Origin: a virus
Length of the DNA: 25,800 nt
Strand: one strand, 5' to 3'
Virus record (IMG/VR): IMGVR_UViG_3300047586_000015
Location: 1-25,800 of that record
The first letter of the stretch is position 1, and the number at the start of each line of letters is the position of its first letter. Shown here piece by piece: positions 1-15,255 of the stretch. A program made the position numbers and the translations under genes. Below the pieces are notes generated by a model, which was not told the origin of the DNA, searched no databases, and saw only the letters and a list, made by a program, of their open reading frames with translations.

Positions 1-76
1 CGGATATTCCCATCTGTTCGTAGATTTCGTAAGCAACCCTGGCAATTTCTTCTTTGAGATTCTGTTTGCTGTCCAT
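1..76 (-). CDS. DUF2934-like protein, N-terminal fragment
   Basis: The reverse strand reads an ATG at 76 followed by 25 open codons to the window edge, beginning MDSKQNLKEEIARVAYEIYE. The pattern IARVAYEIYEQMG resembles the start of DUF2934 proteins (IAxxAYxLYExxG), small proteins of unknown function common in deltaproteobacteria and relatives. Only the N-terminus is visible, so neither length nor the expected downstream tryptophan/acidic motif can be checked. It is divergent from the packaging operon and could be host flanking DNA or a phage gene. The ribosome site is weak (AAGAG about 8 bases upstream). Confidence 0.5.
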   Translation of the reverse strand, partial: MDSKQNLKEEIARVAYEIYEQMGIS

Positions 77-450
77 GATGGGCTCTTTTTATTGAGTCGA
101 GGGAACCGGATTCTCCCGATATGCAGGTTGATGTTTGTTATCTCCGTTTACCGCCTGGTTTCCAGACGGTGCCACATCATTTCAATCATTACCGTTTGTA
201 CTCTCGCATGGTTCTAAAAATCAGTCAATCATTGAGTACAGGAAGGAGCCCACACTTCGCTGCACCCGCCTTTTGGACAAAAGAATATCCACTATTTCCG
301 GTCGAAAGCAAACAGTTTTCTCAAGGTTAACGTTTTACTGACTTCAGCTTGCTACATATTTTTCACAAGTATGCTTAAATCGGAGGAACCAATAAATCTG
401 TCCGGGATTGTACCCCCACGGTACCCCCTATTGGGGTTCTATCGTTCGGG
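77..450. other. Non-coding leader upstream of the packaging genes
   Basis: No convincing gene is seen. Two overlapping short open frames (121-330 and 135-341) lack ribosome sites and family resemblance. The stretch is more AT-rich than the genes to its right. It holds a 19-base dyad at 151-169 (CCG-C-CTGG-TTT-CCAG-A-CGG), a GGAGG at 382-386 with no well-placed ATG after it, and the 8-mer GTACCCCC repeated at 410-417 and 421-428. I found no clear sigma-70 promoter; TTGCTA (349-354) and TATGCT (370-375) are only 15 bases apart and are unconvincing. Confidence 0.5.
410..436. repeat. Tandem GTACCCCC 8-mers followed by a CCCC-TATT-GGGG dyad
   Basis: GTACCCCC occurs at 410-417 and again at 421-428, with an 11-base period (about one helical turn). 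The second copy runs into CCCC-TATT-GGGG. The element lies 40-65 bases before the small terminase ATG. It could be an operator or part of a packaging or initiation site; its function is not known from sequence alone. Confidence 0.45.
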
Positions 451-474
451 TTGGTTTTTTGTTCCAATGGGGCC

Positions 475-1206
475 ATGAAACCATTGAAATCAAAACCCAC
501 CCGCCAAAAGACCAAACCGAAGAGGAGGGCCAAGATATGCACTAATACTACCAAGACCAGTTCCAAACCTGCACCAAATCTGTCAAAATCTGCCTCAAAT
601 CTGTCGAAACCTGTATCAAACCTGACACTATCTGCAAAGCAGCAACTTTTTGTCCTCGAATTTTTGGTGGACAAAAACGCTACACAGGCCGCGATTCGGG
701 CCGGTTACAGCGTCCGCACGGCTCGCAAGATAGCAACCGAAAACCTGTCAAAACCAGTCATAAAAGCCGCAATCGACACCGAGATTGAAAAGCAGAAGGC
801 GCGGATCACCTTTACCGCCGATCAAGTCCTGGAAGAGCTGGCCCTTATCGGCTTCGCCAACATGGCCGATTTCATCCATGTTGATGAGAGCGGCATGGTC
901 CAGGCCCTACCGTTTGAAACCCTGGCCGAGGGGCAGTCCCGGATCGTCAAGAAGGTGAAAGACAAGCGCGTCATTCGGAGCACCAAAGGCACTGAGGACA
1001 ACCCGGACGGTGATCAGATCCTTGACGCGACGTTCGAGTTTGAGCTGTGCGACAAGGTGAAGTCCCTGGAGCTGTTAGCGCGGCACCTGGGCCTCCTGCA
1101 CGACAAGACCGAGGTCGATCTCAAGCAGCCGATCCAGATCACGATCAAGAAGTTTTGCAGCCGGAAGACGGCGAAGGATACCGATGGGAGTCGAGCTACC
1201 TCATAA
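475..1206 (+). CDS. terS: Terminase small subunit (Terminase_2 type)
   Basis: This protein of 243 residues is expected to recognise the packaging start site on phage DNA and bring in the large terminase. After a basic, low-complexity N-terminal arm of about 50 residues comes the typical family core, LSAKQQLFVLEFLVDKNATQ followed by AAIRAGYS, a helix-turn-helix region for DNA binding. The arm holds three 7-residue repeats of the form S-K-x-x-x-N-L (about residues 30-50), which at DNA level form a helically phased heptamer array. I chose ATG at 475 over the in-frame TTG at 451, which would add only eight residues; neither has a good ribosome site. The end overlaps the large terminase start by 23 bases, implying coupled translation. 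The family call is firm; the start is less so. Confidence 0.85.
   Translation: MKPLKSKPTRQKTKPKRRAKICTNTTKTSSKPAPNLSKSASNLSKPVSNLTLSAKQQLFVLEFLVDKNATQAAIRAGYSVRTARKIATENLSKPVIKAAIDTEIEKQKARITFTADQVLEELALIGFANMADFIHVDESGMVQALPFETLAEGQSRIVKKVKDKRVIRSTKGTEDNPDGDQILDATFEFELCDKVKSLELLARHLGLLHDKTEVDLKQPIQITIKKFCSRKTAKDTDGSRATS
554..634 (+). repeat. Helically phased AAAYCTG array inside terS (candidate pac site)
   Basis: The heptamer AAACCTG or AAATCTG occurs at 565, 576, 586, 597, 607 and 618. Steps of 11, 10, 11, 10 and 11 bases average one turn of B-DNA. Degenerate copies continue the phase at 554 (AGACCAG) and 628 (CTATCTG). Alternate copies fall in different codon phases: some encode Lys-Pro/Lys-Ser, others straddle the Asn-Leu codons. 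Two more copies lie at 741 (AAACCTG) and 751 (AAACCAG). In P22 and related phages pac lies in or beside the small terminase gene, so this is a reasonable pac candidate. That role is inference. Confidence 0.55.
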
Positions 1207-2521
1207 CGGGTGGGAACCGCGCGACGATCAGATCGCCCTCTGGGATTACCTGGAGAATGGCGGGAAGCGTGCCGTCGAGGTCGCACATCGCCGCTGGGGC
1301 AAAGATGACATCGCCCTTCACTTCACTGCGACGGCATCACAAGAGCGCATCGGAAACTACTGGCATATGCTGCCGCAATTCAACCAGTGCCGCAAGGCCA
1401 TTTGGGAGGCCGTGAACCCCCGGACCGGCATGAAGCGGATCGACGAGGCATTCCCTGAAGAGATGCGGGCCTCGATACGATCCACCGACATGTACATCGG
1501 CTTCAAGAACGGTGCATCATGGCAGGTTGTGGGCTCCGACAACTACAACGCCCTGGTCGGCTCCCCGCCTATTGGCATCGTCTTTTCCGAGTACGCCCTC
1601 AGTGACCCTCGTTCCTGGGCCTACCTTTCCCCCATCCTTGAAGAAAATGGCGGATGGGCCGCGTTCATCTCCACGTCCAGAGGAAACAATCACCTGAAAC
1701 AGATGTTGGATTTCGCCCGCATCACCCTTGGCTGGTTCGCGCAAGTCCTGACTGCAGACGACACGCCGGTCTTTACCAAGATGCGCCTGGAGGAGATCCG
1801 GGCCGAGTTGGTCGGGACGTTTGGGCCGGAGATGGGCGAGGCCATGTTCCAGCAAGAGTATTTCTGCTCGTTCCAGGGCGCAGTGATGGGCGCGTACTAC
1901 GCCAAACAGATGGCCCTGGCTCGCAAGGAAGGCAGGATAACGAGCGTGCCCCACGAGACAGGCGCCGAAGTCTACACCTTTTGGGATCTGGGTGTGGACG
2001 ACTCCATGACGATCTGGTTCGCGCAGTTCATCGGCAAGGAGACCAGGTGCATCGATTATTACGAGAGCAGCGGCATGGGCTTGGCTCATTACGCCAAGAT
2101 CCTGAAGGAAAAGCCCTACGTTTATGGCGATCACTACATGCCCCACGATGCGGCAGTGCGAGAGATGAGCGCCGGCGAGCACGCAAAGAGCAGGGTCGAG
2201 GTAGCCGAGGAGCTGGGGATCAAACCGATCATCGTCGTTGAGCGCCCACGGAACACGGACGCCGTCATGAACGGCATCGAGGCCGTGAGGAATGCCCTGG
2301 GTTCGTGCTGGTTCGATGAGCGCAAGTGTTCCCCCGGCATATCGGCTTTGGAAGGCTACAGGGCCGAATACGACGAAGAAAAGAAGATTCTCAAGCGGAC
2401 ACCGCTGCATGACCACTGCTCTCACGGGGCCGACGGGTTCAGGACTTTCGCCGTTGGGTACAGGGCGAAGCGGATCAATAAATCTTCCAACAGGCAAGTC
2501 GTTTCAGGGTGGGCCGCATGA
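1184..2521 (+). CDS. terL: Terminase large subunit (packaging ATPase/nuclease)
   Basis: This 445-residue protein is the motor that pumps DNA into the prohead and cuts it. The N-terminal ATPase shows a Walker A-like HRRWGKDD at residues 35-42, a Walker B-like hydrophobic strand ending IVFSEY near 132-137 (Ser-Glu where Asp-Glu is more usual), and a coupling motif STSRG near 163-167. The C-terminal RNase H-like nuclease is suggested by FWDLGVDDS (near 266-274), HDA (near 321) and HGADGFR (near 414-420), which supply acidic metal ligands. Length is normal for the family. The start overlaps terS by 23 bases and the stop overlaps the next ATG as ATGA, so the genes are probably translationally coupled. 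Confidence 0.93.
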   Translation: MGVELPHNGWEPRDDQIALWDYLENGGKRAVEVAHRRWGKDDIALHFTATASQERIGNYWHMLPQFNQCRKAIWEAVNPRTGMKRIDEAFPEEMRASIRSTDMYIGFKNGASWQVVGSDNYNALVGSPPIGIVFSEYALSDPRSWAYLSPILEENGGWAAFISTSRGNNHLKQMLDFARITLGWFAQVLTADDTPVFTKMRLEEIRAELVGTFGPEMGEAMFQQEYFCSFQGAVMGAYYAKQMALARKEGRITSVPHETGAEVYTFWDLGVDDSMTIWFAQFIGKETRCIDYYESSGMGLAHYAKILKEKPYVYGDHYMPHDAAVREMSAGEHAKSRVEVAEELGIKPIIVVERPRNTDAVMNGIEAVRNALGSCWFDERKCSPGISALEGYRAEYDEEKKILKRTPLHDHCSHGADGFRTFAVGYRAKRINKSSNRQVVSGWAA

Positions 2522-10968: not shown

Positions 10969-11015
10969 AACAAAAGATGGCTATTGGGAGCCCAATCTCT
11001 CGGTAGCCATTTTTT
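10969..11015. terminator. Bidirectional terminator shared by the tail-hub operon and the HNH gene
   Basis: On the plus strand ATGGCTA (10977-10983) pairs with TAGCCAT (11004-11010), extendable through flanking A and T bases, with TTGGG/CCCAA inside and T11011-11015 after it. On the minus strand the same hairpin is followed by CTTTTGTTCTTG, so it can stop both directions. The last 13 codons of the HNH gene lie within this structure and its T-run. Confidence 0.75.
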
Positions 11016-11727
11016 GTTGCCCGTTTAACAGGAGACAGGATTTGCCAGCATTACATTCAAAACAAGAGGTTGTCAGGTTATCTAGTCGCGTTTCTCCGCC
11101 ATTGGCGACAGCAAGAACGTGGTCAACGATGAGTTTTGCGCCGTCTTGCGGAGTCCTGCCGCAATATTGGCAAGTGAAATTATCACGCCTGAATACCTCA
11201 AATCTCATTCTTAAATTAGCAAATGGATTTTTCAGGACCACTTTTTTACGCATCCTCGCCATTCTTTGGCCCCATTCTTTTGCAGCATCACTACCCTTTG
11301 TGAAGGAAGGATCACGGGGCGGGAGACCTGCGACCTTCAGGGCATTATTCCATGTGCCAAAGTGCGTCTCATACGCAGACGGTGAAAAACTTTTCCCCTG
11401 TTTGCTTAGAGATTTAAGTTCATCTCTACCAACTGGTCTGCCCATTTCGGCAAATAAGTCCTGCAACCTTGATATCAAAATGTCATCAGAGATAGGAAGC
11501 TTACCGCTTTTATTCCCTTTCACTCCCAACGGAAAACCGGCTGCTCTGGCGGCATTATTCCACGTTCCGAAATATTTTTCATACGTACTCCGGCTCGGGA
11601 ATCCCTTTGGCTTGTCTACCCCTTTTAAGTCCCAATATTTGGGCGGGCGACCAAGCAAAAGGGAAAGTTCTTTCAATTTATTGATGAGGTATTCATCAGT
11701 GAATCTAGGGTGTTTAATGGATTCCAT
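10981..11727 (-). CDS. HNH homing-type endonuclease with two N-terminal repeats
   Basis: This 248-residue protein is on the strand opposite to the late genes. Residues about 10-66 and 79-136 are two copies of a homing-endonuclease-associated repeat, each ending in YExxFGTWNNAxxxAG, probably binding DNA. The nuclease follows: C186-x2-C189, D202-H203, D216-N217 and C222-x2-C225-N226, the layout of a zinc-supported HNH domain. Such enzymes cut one specific site and spread their own gene. The ATG at 11727 has no ribosome site, and a good promoter puts the transcript start on this ATG, so it may be leaderless. The last 13 residues are encoded by the phage terminator region, consistent with insertion. 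It is more AT-rich than its neighbours. Confidence 0.92.
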   Translation of the reverse strand: MESIKHPRFTDEYLINKLKELSLLLGRPPKYWDLKGVDKPKGFPSRSTYEKYFGTWNNAARAAGFPLGVKGNKSGKLPISDDILISRLQDLFAEMGRPVGRDELKSLSKQGKSFSPSAYETHFGTWNNALKVAGLPPRDPSFTKGSDAAKEWGQRMARMRKKVVLKNPFANLRMRFEVFRRDNFTCQYCGRTPQDGAKLIVDHVLAVANGGETRLDNLTTSCFECNAGKSCLLLNGQQKMATERLGSQ

Positions 11728-13345: not shown

Positions 13346-13825
13346 GTGGCCAAGTATCTCAACAACCTTTGTTCTGAAGACTTGGGATTTTACGAGGGCA
13401 ATCTTGTCCGCAAGTTGACGAAACCTTTGATCTGGATAGATGGGGATCTCAGGATTGAAATGCCGATTGACATGGAATCGGATGGAGCGAGTGTTCCGCG
13501 TATCCCTCTTATTTATGATGCCTGGGGAGGGCGGGCTCCAAGGGAAGCCTTCGGGCATGATTTTGGATATCGGATTGATAGTGTACTCATAAGGGTGGTT
13601 AGCCGTGAAATCAATGAAGCCTGCATTGGCCCTATCCCGGAGAAATATATTCTCCGGCGTGAAAGCATCCCAAAGTTGGATGCGGACTGGTATTTCAGGA
13701 TCACCATGCGCGACCGTCCTTATTCTTATTTCGTGTACCAGCCAATGTATCTGGCTGTGAGGGTGCTGGGCAACCCATATTATCACCGGATGAAGGTGAT
13801 GGACCACTTTGAGGTTACGCAATGA
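13346..13825 (+). CDS. DUF1353 family protein
   Basis: This 159-residue protein starts at GTG 13346 after GAGGAGGGC. The central part (DGASVPRIP followed by REAFGHDFGYR) matches the DUF1353 pattern, in which a conserved Asp-Gly-x-Ser-x-Pro is followed by an Ala...His-Asp motif. DUF1353 proteins are widespread in phages next to endolysin and tail genes; their biochemical role is not established. The stop overlaps the endolysin start as ATGA, so the two are coupled. Confidence 0.85.
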   Translation: MAKYLNNLCSEDLGFYEGNLVRKLTKPLIWIDGDLRIEMPIDMESDGASVPRIPLIYDAWGGRAPREAFGHDFGYRIDSVLIRVVSREINEACIGPIPEKYILRRESIPKLDADWYFRITMRDRPYSYFVYQPMYLAVRVLGNPYYHRMKVMDHFEVTQ

Positions 13826-14391
13826 TTGAAAACTTCGACAGATCGTTACTATTCGTTCTCGCTGACGAGGGGAAGTTCTCAAACATTCCCGGAGACCGGG
13901 GGGGAGCTACAAATCTCGGCATAACCTTACGGACCCTGATCGATTATCATTCTCATTTCGATTACGGGGATTTTGACCATGATGGCGACATTGATGTTGA
14001 CGATATCCGGCTGCTCGACACTCCGGAAGAGGCGGCGCCGATATACCGCAAATGGTTTTGGGACGCCGTCAAGGGGGACGAACTTCCCTCTGGTGTGGAT
14101 TATGCCGTCTTCGATTCGGCAGTCAATCACGGGCCGAGAAACGCTGGACGATTCCTCCAGAGGGCGGCTAACCGGCAAAGAGGGAGTCTGACCACAGATG
14201 GCGTCATTGGCCCGGAAACACTTGGGGGAGTAGACAGGTGTGAATCGCGGGGTCTTATTTGCGATATCCTTCGGGAACGGGACATCTTCTATCGGAAGAT
14301 TGTGGCGCAAGATCCGTCACAGGGACAGTTTTTGAGGGGATGGTTAAATCGGTTGGCAAAGGTGGATTCTGCGGCAAGGAGCTTTTCTTAA
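13822..14391 (+). CDS. GH108 endolysin with an inserted EF-hand loop
   Basis: This 189-residue protein would cut the glycan chains of peptidoglycan at lysis (N-acetylmuramidase family GH108). The N-terminal motif DEGKFSNIPGDRGGATNLGIT (residues 15-35) carries the likely catalytic Glu16. The part with YRKWFWDAVKGDELPSGVDY and AVFDSAVNHG plus the TDGVIGPETL section matches the C-terminal peptidoglycan-binding_3 region. Between them, residues 50-61 form a calcium-loop motif D-x-D-x-D-G-D-I-D-x-D-D, like an EF-hand or dockerin loop, which GH108 enzymes normally lack. No signal peptide is seen, so it needs a holin. It starts on the previous stop (ATGA). Confidence 0.88.
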   Translation: MIENFDRSLLFVLADEGKFSNIPGDRGGATNLGITLRTLIDYHSHFDYGDFDHDGDIDVDDIRLLDTPEEAAPIYRKWFWDAVKGDELPSGVDYAVFDSAVNHGPRNAGRFLQRAANRQRGSLTTDGVIGPETLGGVDRCESRGLICDILRERDIFYRKIVAQDPSQGQFLRGWLNRLAKVDSAARSFS

Positions 14392-14403: not shown

Positions 14404-15255
14404 ATGAATAGGAAATTGGCTTGGAAGAAAGACAAATACGATTCAAGGGATTTCATTCATAAACCGGGGGAAGACAGGATTCTGCCCTTGTTCAGTCTGG
14501 TTCAGTATTGTCCGGATGTGCGGGATCAGGGGGATGTTGGCTCCTGCACGGGATTCGGGATCGGGGGAATCCTGACGGGAGTGGCCAAACAACTGAATGT
14601 CTTCAAGGAATGGTTCAGTCCGGAGTGGATTTACAACGGCGCCCGATACATCGAAGGAACCCTGACACAGGACGCCGGGGCGGAACCCGGCGACTGCATG
14701 AGCTGGTTGAAATCCAAAGGGTGCCTCCTGGAAGAATTCTGGCCCTACAATCCTAACGTCCTGGACACCACGTCGCCGCCGTCCAAGGATAACGCATTGG
14801 CGGCGAAATATCCTTTGCTGACTTACGTCCGTGTTACGGGCGGCTCCGCTGGGATATGCTCGGCAATCGCCGCGGGGAACCTCGTAACCATCGGCACTCC
14901 GTGGTTTGATTCATGGATGAATCCCAAAGTGGACGGAATTCTGCCTGTCGTTACCGCGAAGGATACGGTTGCCGGCGGACATGAGACATTCCTTTTCGGC
15001 TACGACAAGACCAGCAAGAAGTTTGCCGGCCAGAATTCCTGGGGAACCTCGTGGGGCAAGATGGGGACATACCTTATGCCGTTCACTCCTTTTGACGGGG
15101 TATTCAGCACCCTGGGCGGGTATGACGCCTATTATGTTACCGTCAACTGGGGCGCGCCGCCACCGACACCCACGCCTAACGGGGCTACAAGAATGGTCCG
15201 GTTGGACAATTCCGTTGATGGCGGGAAGACGTGGCAACAAATTTACCAAGGATAG
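14404..15255 (+). CDS. Papain-like cysteine protease (peptidase C1 type) with C-terminal Asp-box
   Basis: This 283-residue protein shows the papain layout: Gln42 and Cys48 in DQGDVGSCTGF, His193 in GGHETFLFGY, and Asn211 in GQNSWGTSWGKMGTY, so catalytic residues appear intact. The N-terminus KKDKYDSRDF is typical of bacterial C1 peptidases that lack a long propeptide. After residue 250 a Pro/Thr linker (PPPTPTP) leads to SVDGGKTW (270-277), a perfect Asp-box (S-x-D-x-G-x-T-W) at the very end. No signal peptide is seen. A strong ribosome site (AAAAGGAGAAC) precedes ATG 14404, 12 bases after the endolysin stop. Its substrate is unknown: peptidoglycan peptides, envelope proteins or host defence proteins are options. 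Confidence 0.88.
   Translation: MNRKLAWKKDKYDSRDFIHKPGEDRILPLFSLVQYCPDVRDQGDVGSCTGFGIGGILTGVAKQLNVFKEWFSPEWIYNGARYIEGTLTQDAGAEPGDCMSWLKSKGCLLEEFWPYNPNVLDTTSPPSKDNALAAKYPLLTYVRVTGGSAGICSAIAAGNLVTIGTPWFDSWMNPKVDGILPVVTAKDTVAGGHETFLFGYDKTSKKFAGQNSWGTSWGKMGTYLMPFTPFDGVFSTLGGYDAYYVTVNWGAPPPTPTPNGATRMVRLDNSVDGGKTWQQIYQG

Follow-up and report, generated by a model that had tools for sequence, protein, structure and literature searches.

Introduction

In pac phages the small terminase subunit (TerS) is a weak DNA binder, and the model in which the DNA wraps round the TerS ring is disputed (PMC9611059). The closest described sites are those of SPP1 and SF6. In SPP1, pac covers promoters, the ribosome-binding site and the start of the small terminase gene (terS, gene 1), including codons for the DNA-binding domain (PMC6316719); its pacL segment has an intrinsic bend and is wrapped (PMC4856287). 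In the proposal of Greive et al., bent DNA is selected by helix-turn-helix domains arranged in a ring about one helical turn apart (PMC4737164). The only preference measured for the SF6 DNA-binding domain is a weak one for TTAGGTT, and replacing Lys48 of SF6 TerS abolished DNA binding (PMC4737164). HK97 TerS threads DNA, and the same paper describes the channels of SF6 and SPP1 TerS as looking too narrow (PMC11331095).

A recognition site within the small terminase gene, as described below for the window, is also found in P22. In phage P1, several short TerS-target words likewise lie within the small terminase gene: pac consists of hexamer repeats in pacA, with words that are not known to recur at one helical turn. 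The pac of P22 consists of one asymmetric 22-bp sequence (PMC9611059), in contrast to the multi-copy array reported here. Lambda cosB (R3-I1-R2-R1) combines repeated TerS sites with an intrinsic bend (PMC4856287), as the array does by prediction; it differs in having far fewer, IHF-assisted sites, a TerS of another fold and cohesive-end cleavage. Here we describe a helically phased heptamer array in the terS gene of an uncultured phage. It most likely represents a variant form of the bent packaging site of SPP1/SF6, overlapping its own terminase gene.

Results

The window (the whole stretch of DNA that was analysed) covers 25.8 kb of an uncultured tailed phage; its record, like those of the relatives used below, is a linear fragment. 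Its terminase sits with a P22-type portal, in a phage group different from that of SPP1 and SF6, and the window also encodes a Phage_capsid_3 coat and an SU10-type adaptor. Between structural genes, on the opposite strand, lies an HNH endonuclease gene with homing-associated repeats (10981-11727, minus strand), probably a homing or moron gene, and in the phage late region a papain-like cysteine protease domain (14404-15255) adjoins a GH108 endolysin (13822-14391). The features needed below are, in window coordinates:

475 to 1206, plus strand: terS, small terminase subunit, 243 aa, PF03592, ATG at 475
475 to 627, plus strand: N-terminal tail of TerS, codons 1-51, Lys/Ser/Pro/Asn-rich, predicted disordered, protein sequence poorly conserved
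554 to 560, plus strand: degenerate in-phase copy AGACCAG; an exact AAACCTG occupies this phased position in relative L008
565 to 624, plus strand: AAAYCTG array, six exact copies in steps of 11, 10, 11, 10 and 11 bp, three 21-bp units, predicted curvature maximum of the window
628 to 634, plus strand: degenerate in-phase copy CTATCTG where the codons of the DNA-binding domain begin; 5/5 close sequences have NTATCTG
628 to 795, plus strand: helix-turn-helix DNA-binding domain, residues 52-107, match to the SF6 TerS DNA-binding domain 4zc3
741 to 764, plus strand: 24-nt stretch coding for ENLSKPVI, including Lys93, 75% identity to the array unit
1184 to 2521, plus strand: terL, large terminase subunit, phrog_2, E 1.8e-19

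Assignment of the small subunit is supported by matches to PF03592 (Terminase_2; E 4.6e-32, 112 bits against a cut-off of 26.1, residues 52-214) and to phrog_51 (terminase small subunit, E 1.7e-38). Translation might alternatively start from a TTG at 451. The original prediction had likened the locus to P22-like phages. This analogy was not supported: TerS is a PF03592 protein whose nearest solved relative, by structure and by sequence, is SF6/SPP1 TerS, and the proper comparison is therefore SPP1/SF6 pacL rather than P22 pac. P22 TerS is not known to be PF03592-like, nor P22 pac to contain such an array; the TerS of the window matches PF03592/SF6 only. In a predicted model of the monomer, which is of low confidence outside the DNA-binding domain, pLDDT is below 50 for residues 1-49, and the confident domain matches 4zc3 with Z 10.4 and an rmsd of 0.9 over 56 residues (50% identity). 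Lys93 (codon 751-753, within ENLSKP) aligns with SF6 Lys48. The array spans +90 to +150 of terS; given the pLDDT profile and the 4zc3 match, it encodes disordered tail and stops at the first codon of the DNA-binding domain, a position that fits the earlier suggestion of a possible seat for a TerS ring.

Two further features flank the array. An inverted repeat (TTTTTGTCCTCGAA / TTGGTGGACAAAAA, window 647-677) lies just 3' of it; as a candidate cleavage dyad it was rejected, a compensatory pair being present in L005 only and the repeat being broken in other relatives. Upstream, window positions 1-250 are unrelated to the corresponding region of L005 and L006, which are otherwise 92% identical, placing a module boundary about 225 bp upstream of terS.

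The heptamer array is a non-random feature, far beyond chance. All six exact copies lie on the plus strand where they had been predicted (565, 576, 586, 597, 607 and 618) and read CAGRTTT on the minus strand, and the degenerate in-phase copies expected at 554 and 628 were found as well. Along the array two codon phases alternate, AAA-NCT-G (Lys-Pro/Ser) and A-AAY-CTG (Asn-Leu), again as originally described. The longest run of copies stepped by 10 or 11 bp was six, against at most one in 100 Markov-1 simulations of 25.8 kb, and the outcome was unchanged with local composition. Tandem Repeats Finder independently recovered the 21-bp unit (565-636, score 74), which a second, separate repeat search also picked up. 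The heptamer count across the window is ordinary (10 against 6.9 expected); only clustering and phasing are unusual, and the phased pattern has no second occurrence anywhere else in the record. A scan of viral contigs for three phased copies matched the terS contigs of three relatives and one unrelated contig, the latter without a match to the window TerS.

Curvature was predicted with a wedge model, whose parameters reportedly follow Bolshoy et al. 1991 and which returned strong curvature for phased and weak curvature for unphased A6 tracts. As anticipated from the AAA tracts, the predicted curvature maximum of the 25.8-kb window falls at the array, where A-tract phasing is also strongest and AA recurs with a period of 10.5-10.75 bp. 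Predicted curvature exceeded that of synonymous recodings of the same protein in 5/5 close sequences (P <=0.010). A secondary curvature peak (756 and 758) falls in the 741-764 stretch; the array may have been seeded from this stretch, or both may mirror the same codons.

To compare relatives, we collected sequences from viral and genome contigs, using TerL as one query. The array is present in five distinct close sequences: the window, L005, L007, L011 and L008 (the terS of L006 is the same as that of L005, and the terS of L089, from a Deltaproteobacteria assembly, the same as that of L008). The contig ends of L005 and L007 were rejected as packaging ends: upstream, L005 runs into a poly-G stretch that is crossed in L006, and L007 begins at the ATG itself, so both ends look like assembly or trimming effects. 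Among 46 genomes of the same class, one, already known, had a TerS of the window type, and TerL-based relatives among annotated phages mostly had other TerS types or an unannotated TerS. In L012, TerL is 92% identical to that of the window and TerS only about 58%; its small subunit and tail look exchanged, or fast-evolving relative to the large subunit.

With position classes ('fixed' and 'Y') defined on the window sequence, only 1/12 heptamer-fixed third codon positions vary among the five distinct sequences, compared with 7/9 spacer or Y third positions (Fisher 0.0022); the figure for the downstream rest of the gene is 98/186. At four-fold sites with the window's lineage left out, 1/9 heptamer-fixed and 6/6 spacer columns vary (P 0.0014). 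In the tail codons 5' of the array, variation is spread about evenly over the three codon positions. The original prediction had proposed comparing the DNA with the protein in relatives, and the clearest case is L008. Over the array codons, 13/24 residues but 21/24 third positions are identical to the window, whereas elsewhere in the gene conservation is lowest at third positions (125/190). L008 keeps 50/56 of the phased consensus and has largely lost the amino-acid repeat, the reverse of the outcome (amino-acid repeat kept, heptamer spacing lost) that had been named as speaking against a DNA-level site. The heptamers also depend on codons avoided by the phage (AAA, CCT, TCA and CCA), and in 20,000 synonymous recodings the observed phased score was never reached for any of the five close sequences. 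An antisense ORF (375-674, minus strand) was considered and rejected as the cause of third-position conservation; by frame arithmetic it shares its third codon positions with terS and therefore cannot explain it. The evidence that selection acts on the array at the DNA level appears good though limited, given how few sequences there are and that the window itself served to define the classes.

Phasing of AA extends beyond the heptamer. Scored over a fixed 93-bp segment that precedes the DNA-binding codons, it has a period of 10.25-10.75 bp in 8/8 tail-bearing close or middle-range members (the window, L005, L007, L011, L008, L012, L015 and L023); within their respective loci these segments rank at the 99.2-100th percentile. 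Three of these (L012, L015 and L023) have no heptamer and carry other tails and other DNA words; their AA nevertheless recur every 10.25-10.5 bp over these 93 bp (99.6-100th percentile), and in L012 and L015 the phased segment is the most curved point of the locus. Our reading of these predictions is that the retained property may be bending or phasing rather than the exact word. Among more distant tailed members, L111 had no phasing in the 93-bp segment and L022 had a best period of 12.5, which does not fit. Phasing was not seen at the same place in the tail-less L016 and L017, nor generally in PF03592 prophages (12/30 loci, one strand). The array and local phasing are both absent from L016, L017, L111 and L112, which are tail-less or carry another tail, and the array is therefore not required throughout the family.

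How much of the phasing is owed to the protein was assessed by shuffling and recoding. Shuffling codon order abolished phasing (P 0.0000-0.018), indicating that amino-acid order matters most, and as the 7-residue repeat of the tail equals 21 bp, or two helical turns, the protein repeat carries a good part of the 10.5-bp period. Recoding synonymously with matched A content left a modest excess (combined P 4e-4 over five lineages; single P 0.006-0.12), so that codon choice adds a smaller, significant share. The earlier claim that the protein repeat does not explain the DNA period was therefore too strong.

Several SPP1-like phages (049ML001, 000TH010, 279BB001 and Ray17) served as stand-ins for SPP1. 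In 049ML001, 000TH010 and 279BB001 the locus maximum of AA/TT phasing (T=10.5) lies just upstream of terS, together with the largest phased AGGTT set of the locus, at -64, -53, -32 or -51, -40, -29; the set is absent from Ray17. Because 000TH010 and 279BB001 are nearly identical near terS, this control amounts to two independent sequences. AAACCTG has as its core AACCT, which is complementary to AGGTT, the core in turn of TTAGGTT. In the window, AGRTT is phased six times, inside the gene and on the strand opposite to the AGGTT words of the SPP1-like phages. Agreement of the word may be partly chance, since A-rich words are limited.

Discussion

On balance we favor the view that the array is the core of a pac-type, bent TerS-recognition site (pacL-like) overlapping terS, a reading that we hold to be somewhat more likely than not. 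It is supported by the array itself, its phasing, the predicted curvature, its retention in relatives and an SF6-type DNA-binding domain with the essential Lys. Like the array, SPP1/SF6 pacL is served by an SF6-type TerS, lies at the start of terS and is bent (in the array, by prediction), and in three SPP1-like phages AA/TT is phased at the helical period as well. The phased AGGTT words of those phages have a counterpart in the AGRTT of the array, though on the other strand and within the gene. The overlap is in position and not in exact layout: the array has six to eight copies rather than the three or four of SPP1-like phages, and it lies within N-terminal tail codons, whereas the SPP1 site lies over the promoter and ribosome-binding site.

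In such a site, A-tracts recurring once per helical turn would give the DNA a smooth bend, confined to one plane and about 6-8 turns (60-85 bp) long, and every turn would show the same word on the same face (minus-strand AGRTT, plus-strand AAYCT). Each subunit of a TerS ring would contribute one helix-turn-helix domain, at a spacing of about one helical turn. The bent segment could then wrap part-way round the ring, with successive domains contacting one word each through interactions that would be weak singly and effective collectively, and the wrapped site would mark viral DNA for cleavage nearby by TerL. We infer TerS binding, wrapping, cleavage and headful packaging in this scheme. A further possibility, which we hold tentatively and with some doubt, is that the site acts as a molecular ruler, with one TerS-contact word per turn over about 8 turns matched to the ring. 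The tail would then be mainly coding room and its repeats a by-product of selection for DNA shape, and words could change, as in L012 and L015, while the phase stays.

The main rival to the packaging-site reading is a coding repeat in a flexible tail, in which slippage within disordered sequence duplicated a 21-bp (7-residue) unit, perhaps one copied from the ENLSKPV codons of the same gene, and the DNA pattern is functionless; the tail may be a flexible basic arm, and half-units would resemble each other because Asn-Leu and Lys-Pro codons look alike in DNA. Recognizable tandem units and the dominance of amino-acid order in the phasing are what such a history would leave. Coding alone in fact suffices for NLSKP-like motifs to produce a 10-bp step, as AAYCTG-N3-AAACC (window 741-764; L120), and the N-terminal arm of the SF6 DNA-binding domain contacts DNA (PMC4737164). 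We nevertheless judge this explanation unlikely, given conserved heptamer-fixed beside variable spacer third positions, the intact DNA pattern over a degraded protein repeat in L008, the use of non-preferred codons and the recurrence of phasing in tails of other sequence. Moreover, a Pro-rich disordered tail offers no structural basis for a 3.5-residue period.

Two other roles for the DNA itself deserve mention. Phased A-tracts generally attract nucleoid proteins, and in SPP1 binding of TerS to pac also represses the terminase promoters (PMC4737164); bent DNA could thus serve a host nucleoid protein (IHF, HU or H-NS) or a regulator of the late or terminase operon, with no TerS docking. We consider this improbable: the array is intragenic, 90-150 bp after the start codon, no promoter-like site was found in 1-1300, and phasing sits exactly before the TerS DNA-binding codons, also in relatives with unrelated tails. 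Strong curvature-related periodicity is, in addition, generally absent from phage genomes (PMC3431218). More improbable still is another sequence-specific initiation site in terS (replication iterons, for example, or a cos-type TerS site) that would be recognized by its repeats, with bending playing no part. Direct repeats at helical-turn spacing do resemble iterons and multi-site TerS targets like lambda cosB (PMC4856287), but no replication initiator gene was recognized next to the array, and L012, L015 and L023 have lost the heptamer and kept the phasing.

How TerS recognizes DNA, wrapped round its ring or threaded through it, is still debated in recent reviews. The kind of site proposed here, the bent pac of SPP1/SF6, is known; what is new is most likely an intragenic, opposite-strand, higher-copy variant of it. 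Its six to eight equal words, each one turn from the next and placed ahead of SF6-type DNA-binding codons, provide an unusually clean substrate for footprinting and cryo-EM, and synonymous recoding of the site would put the wrapping model to a direct test. The variant is also an example of a protein tail whose sequence DNA bending may shape, and it supplies a search rule for packaging sites in uncultured phages: phased A-tracts before the DNA-binding codons of terS.
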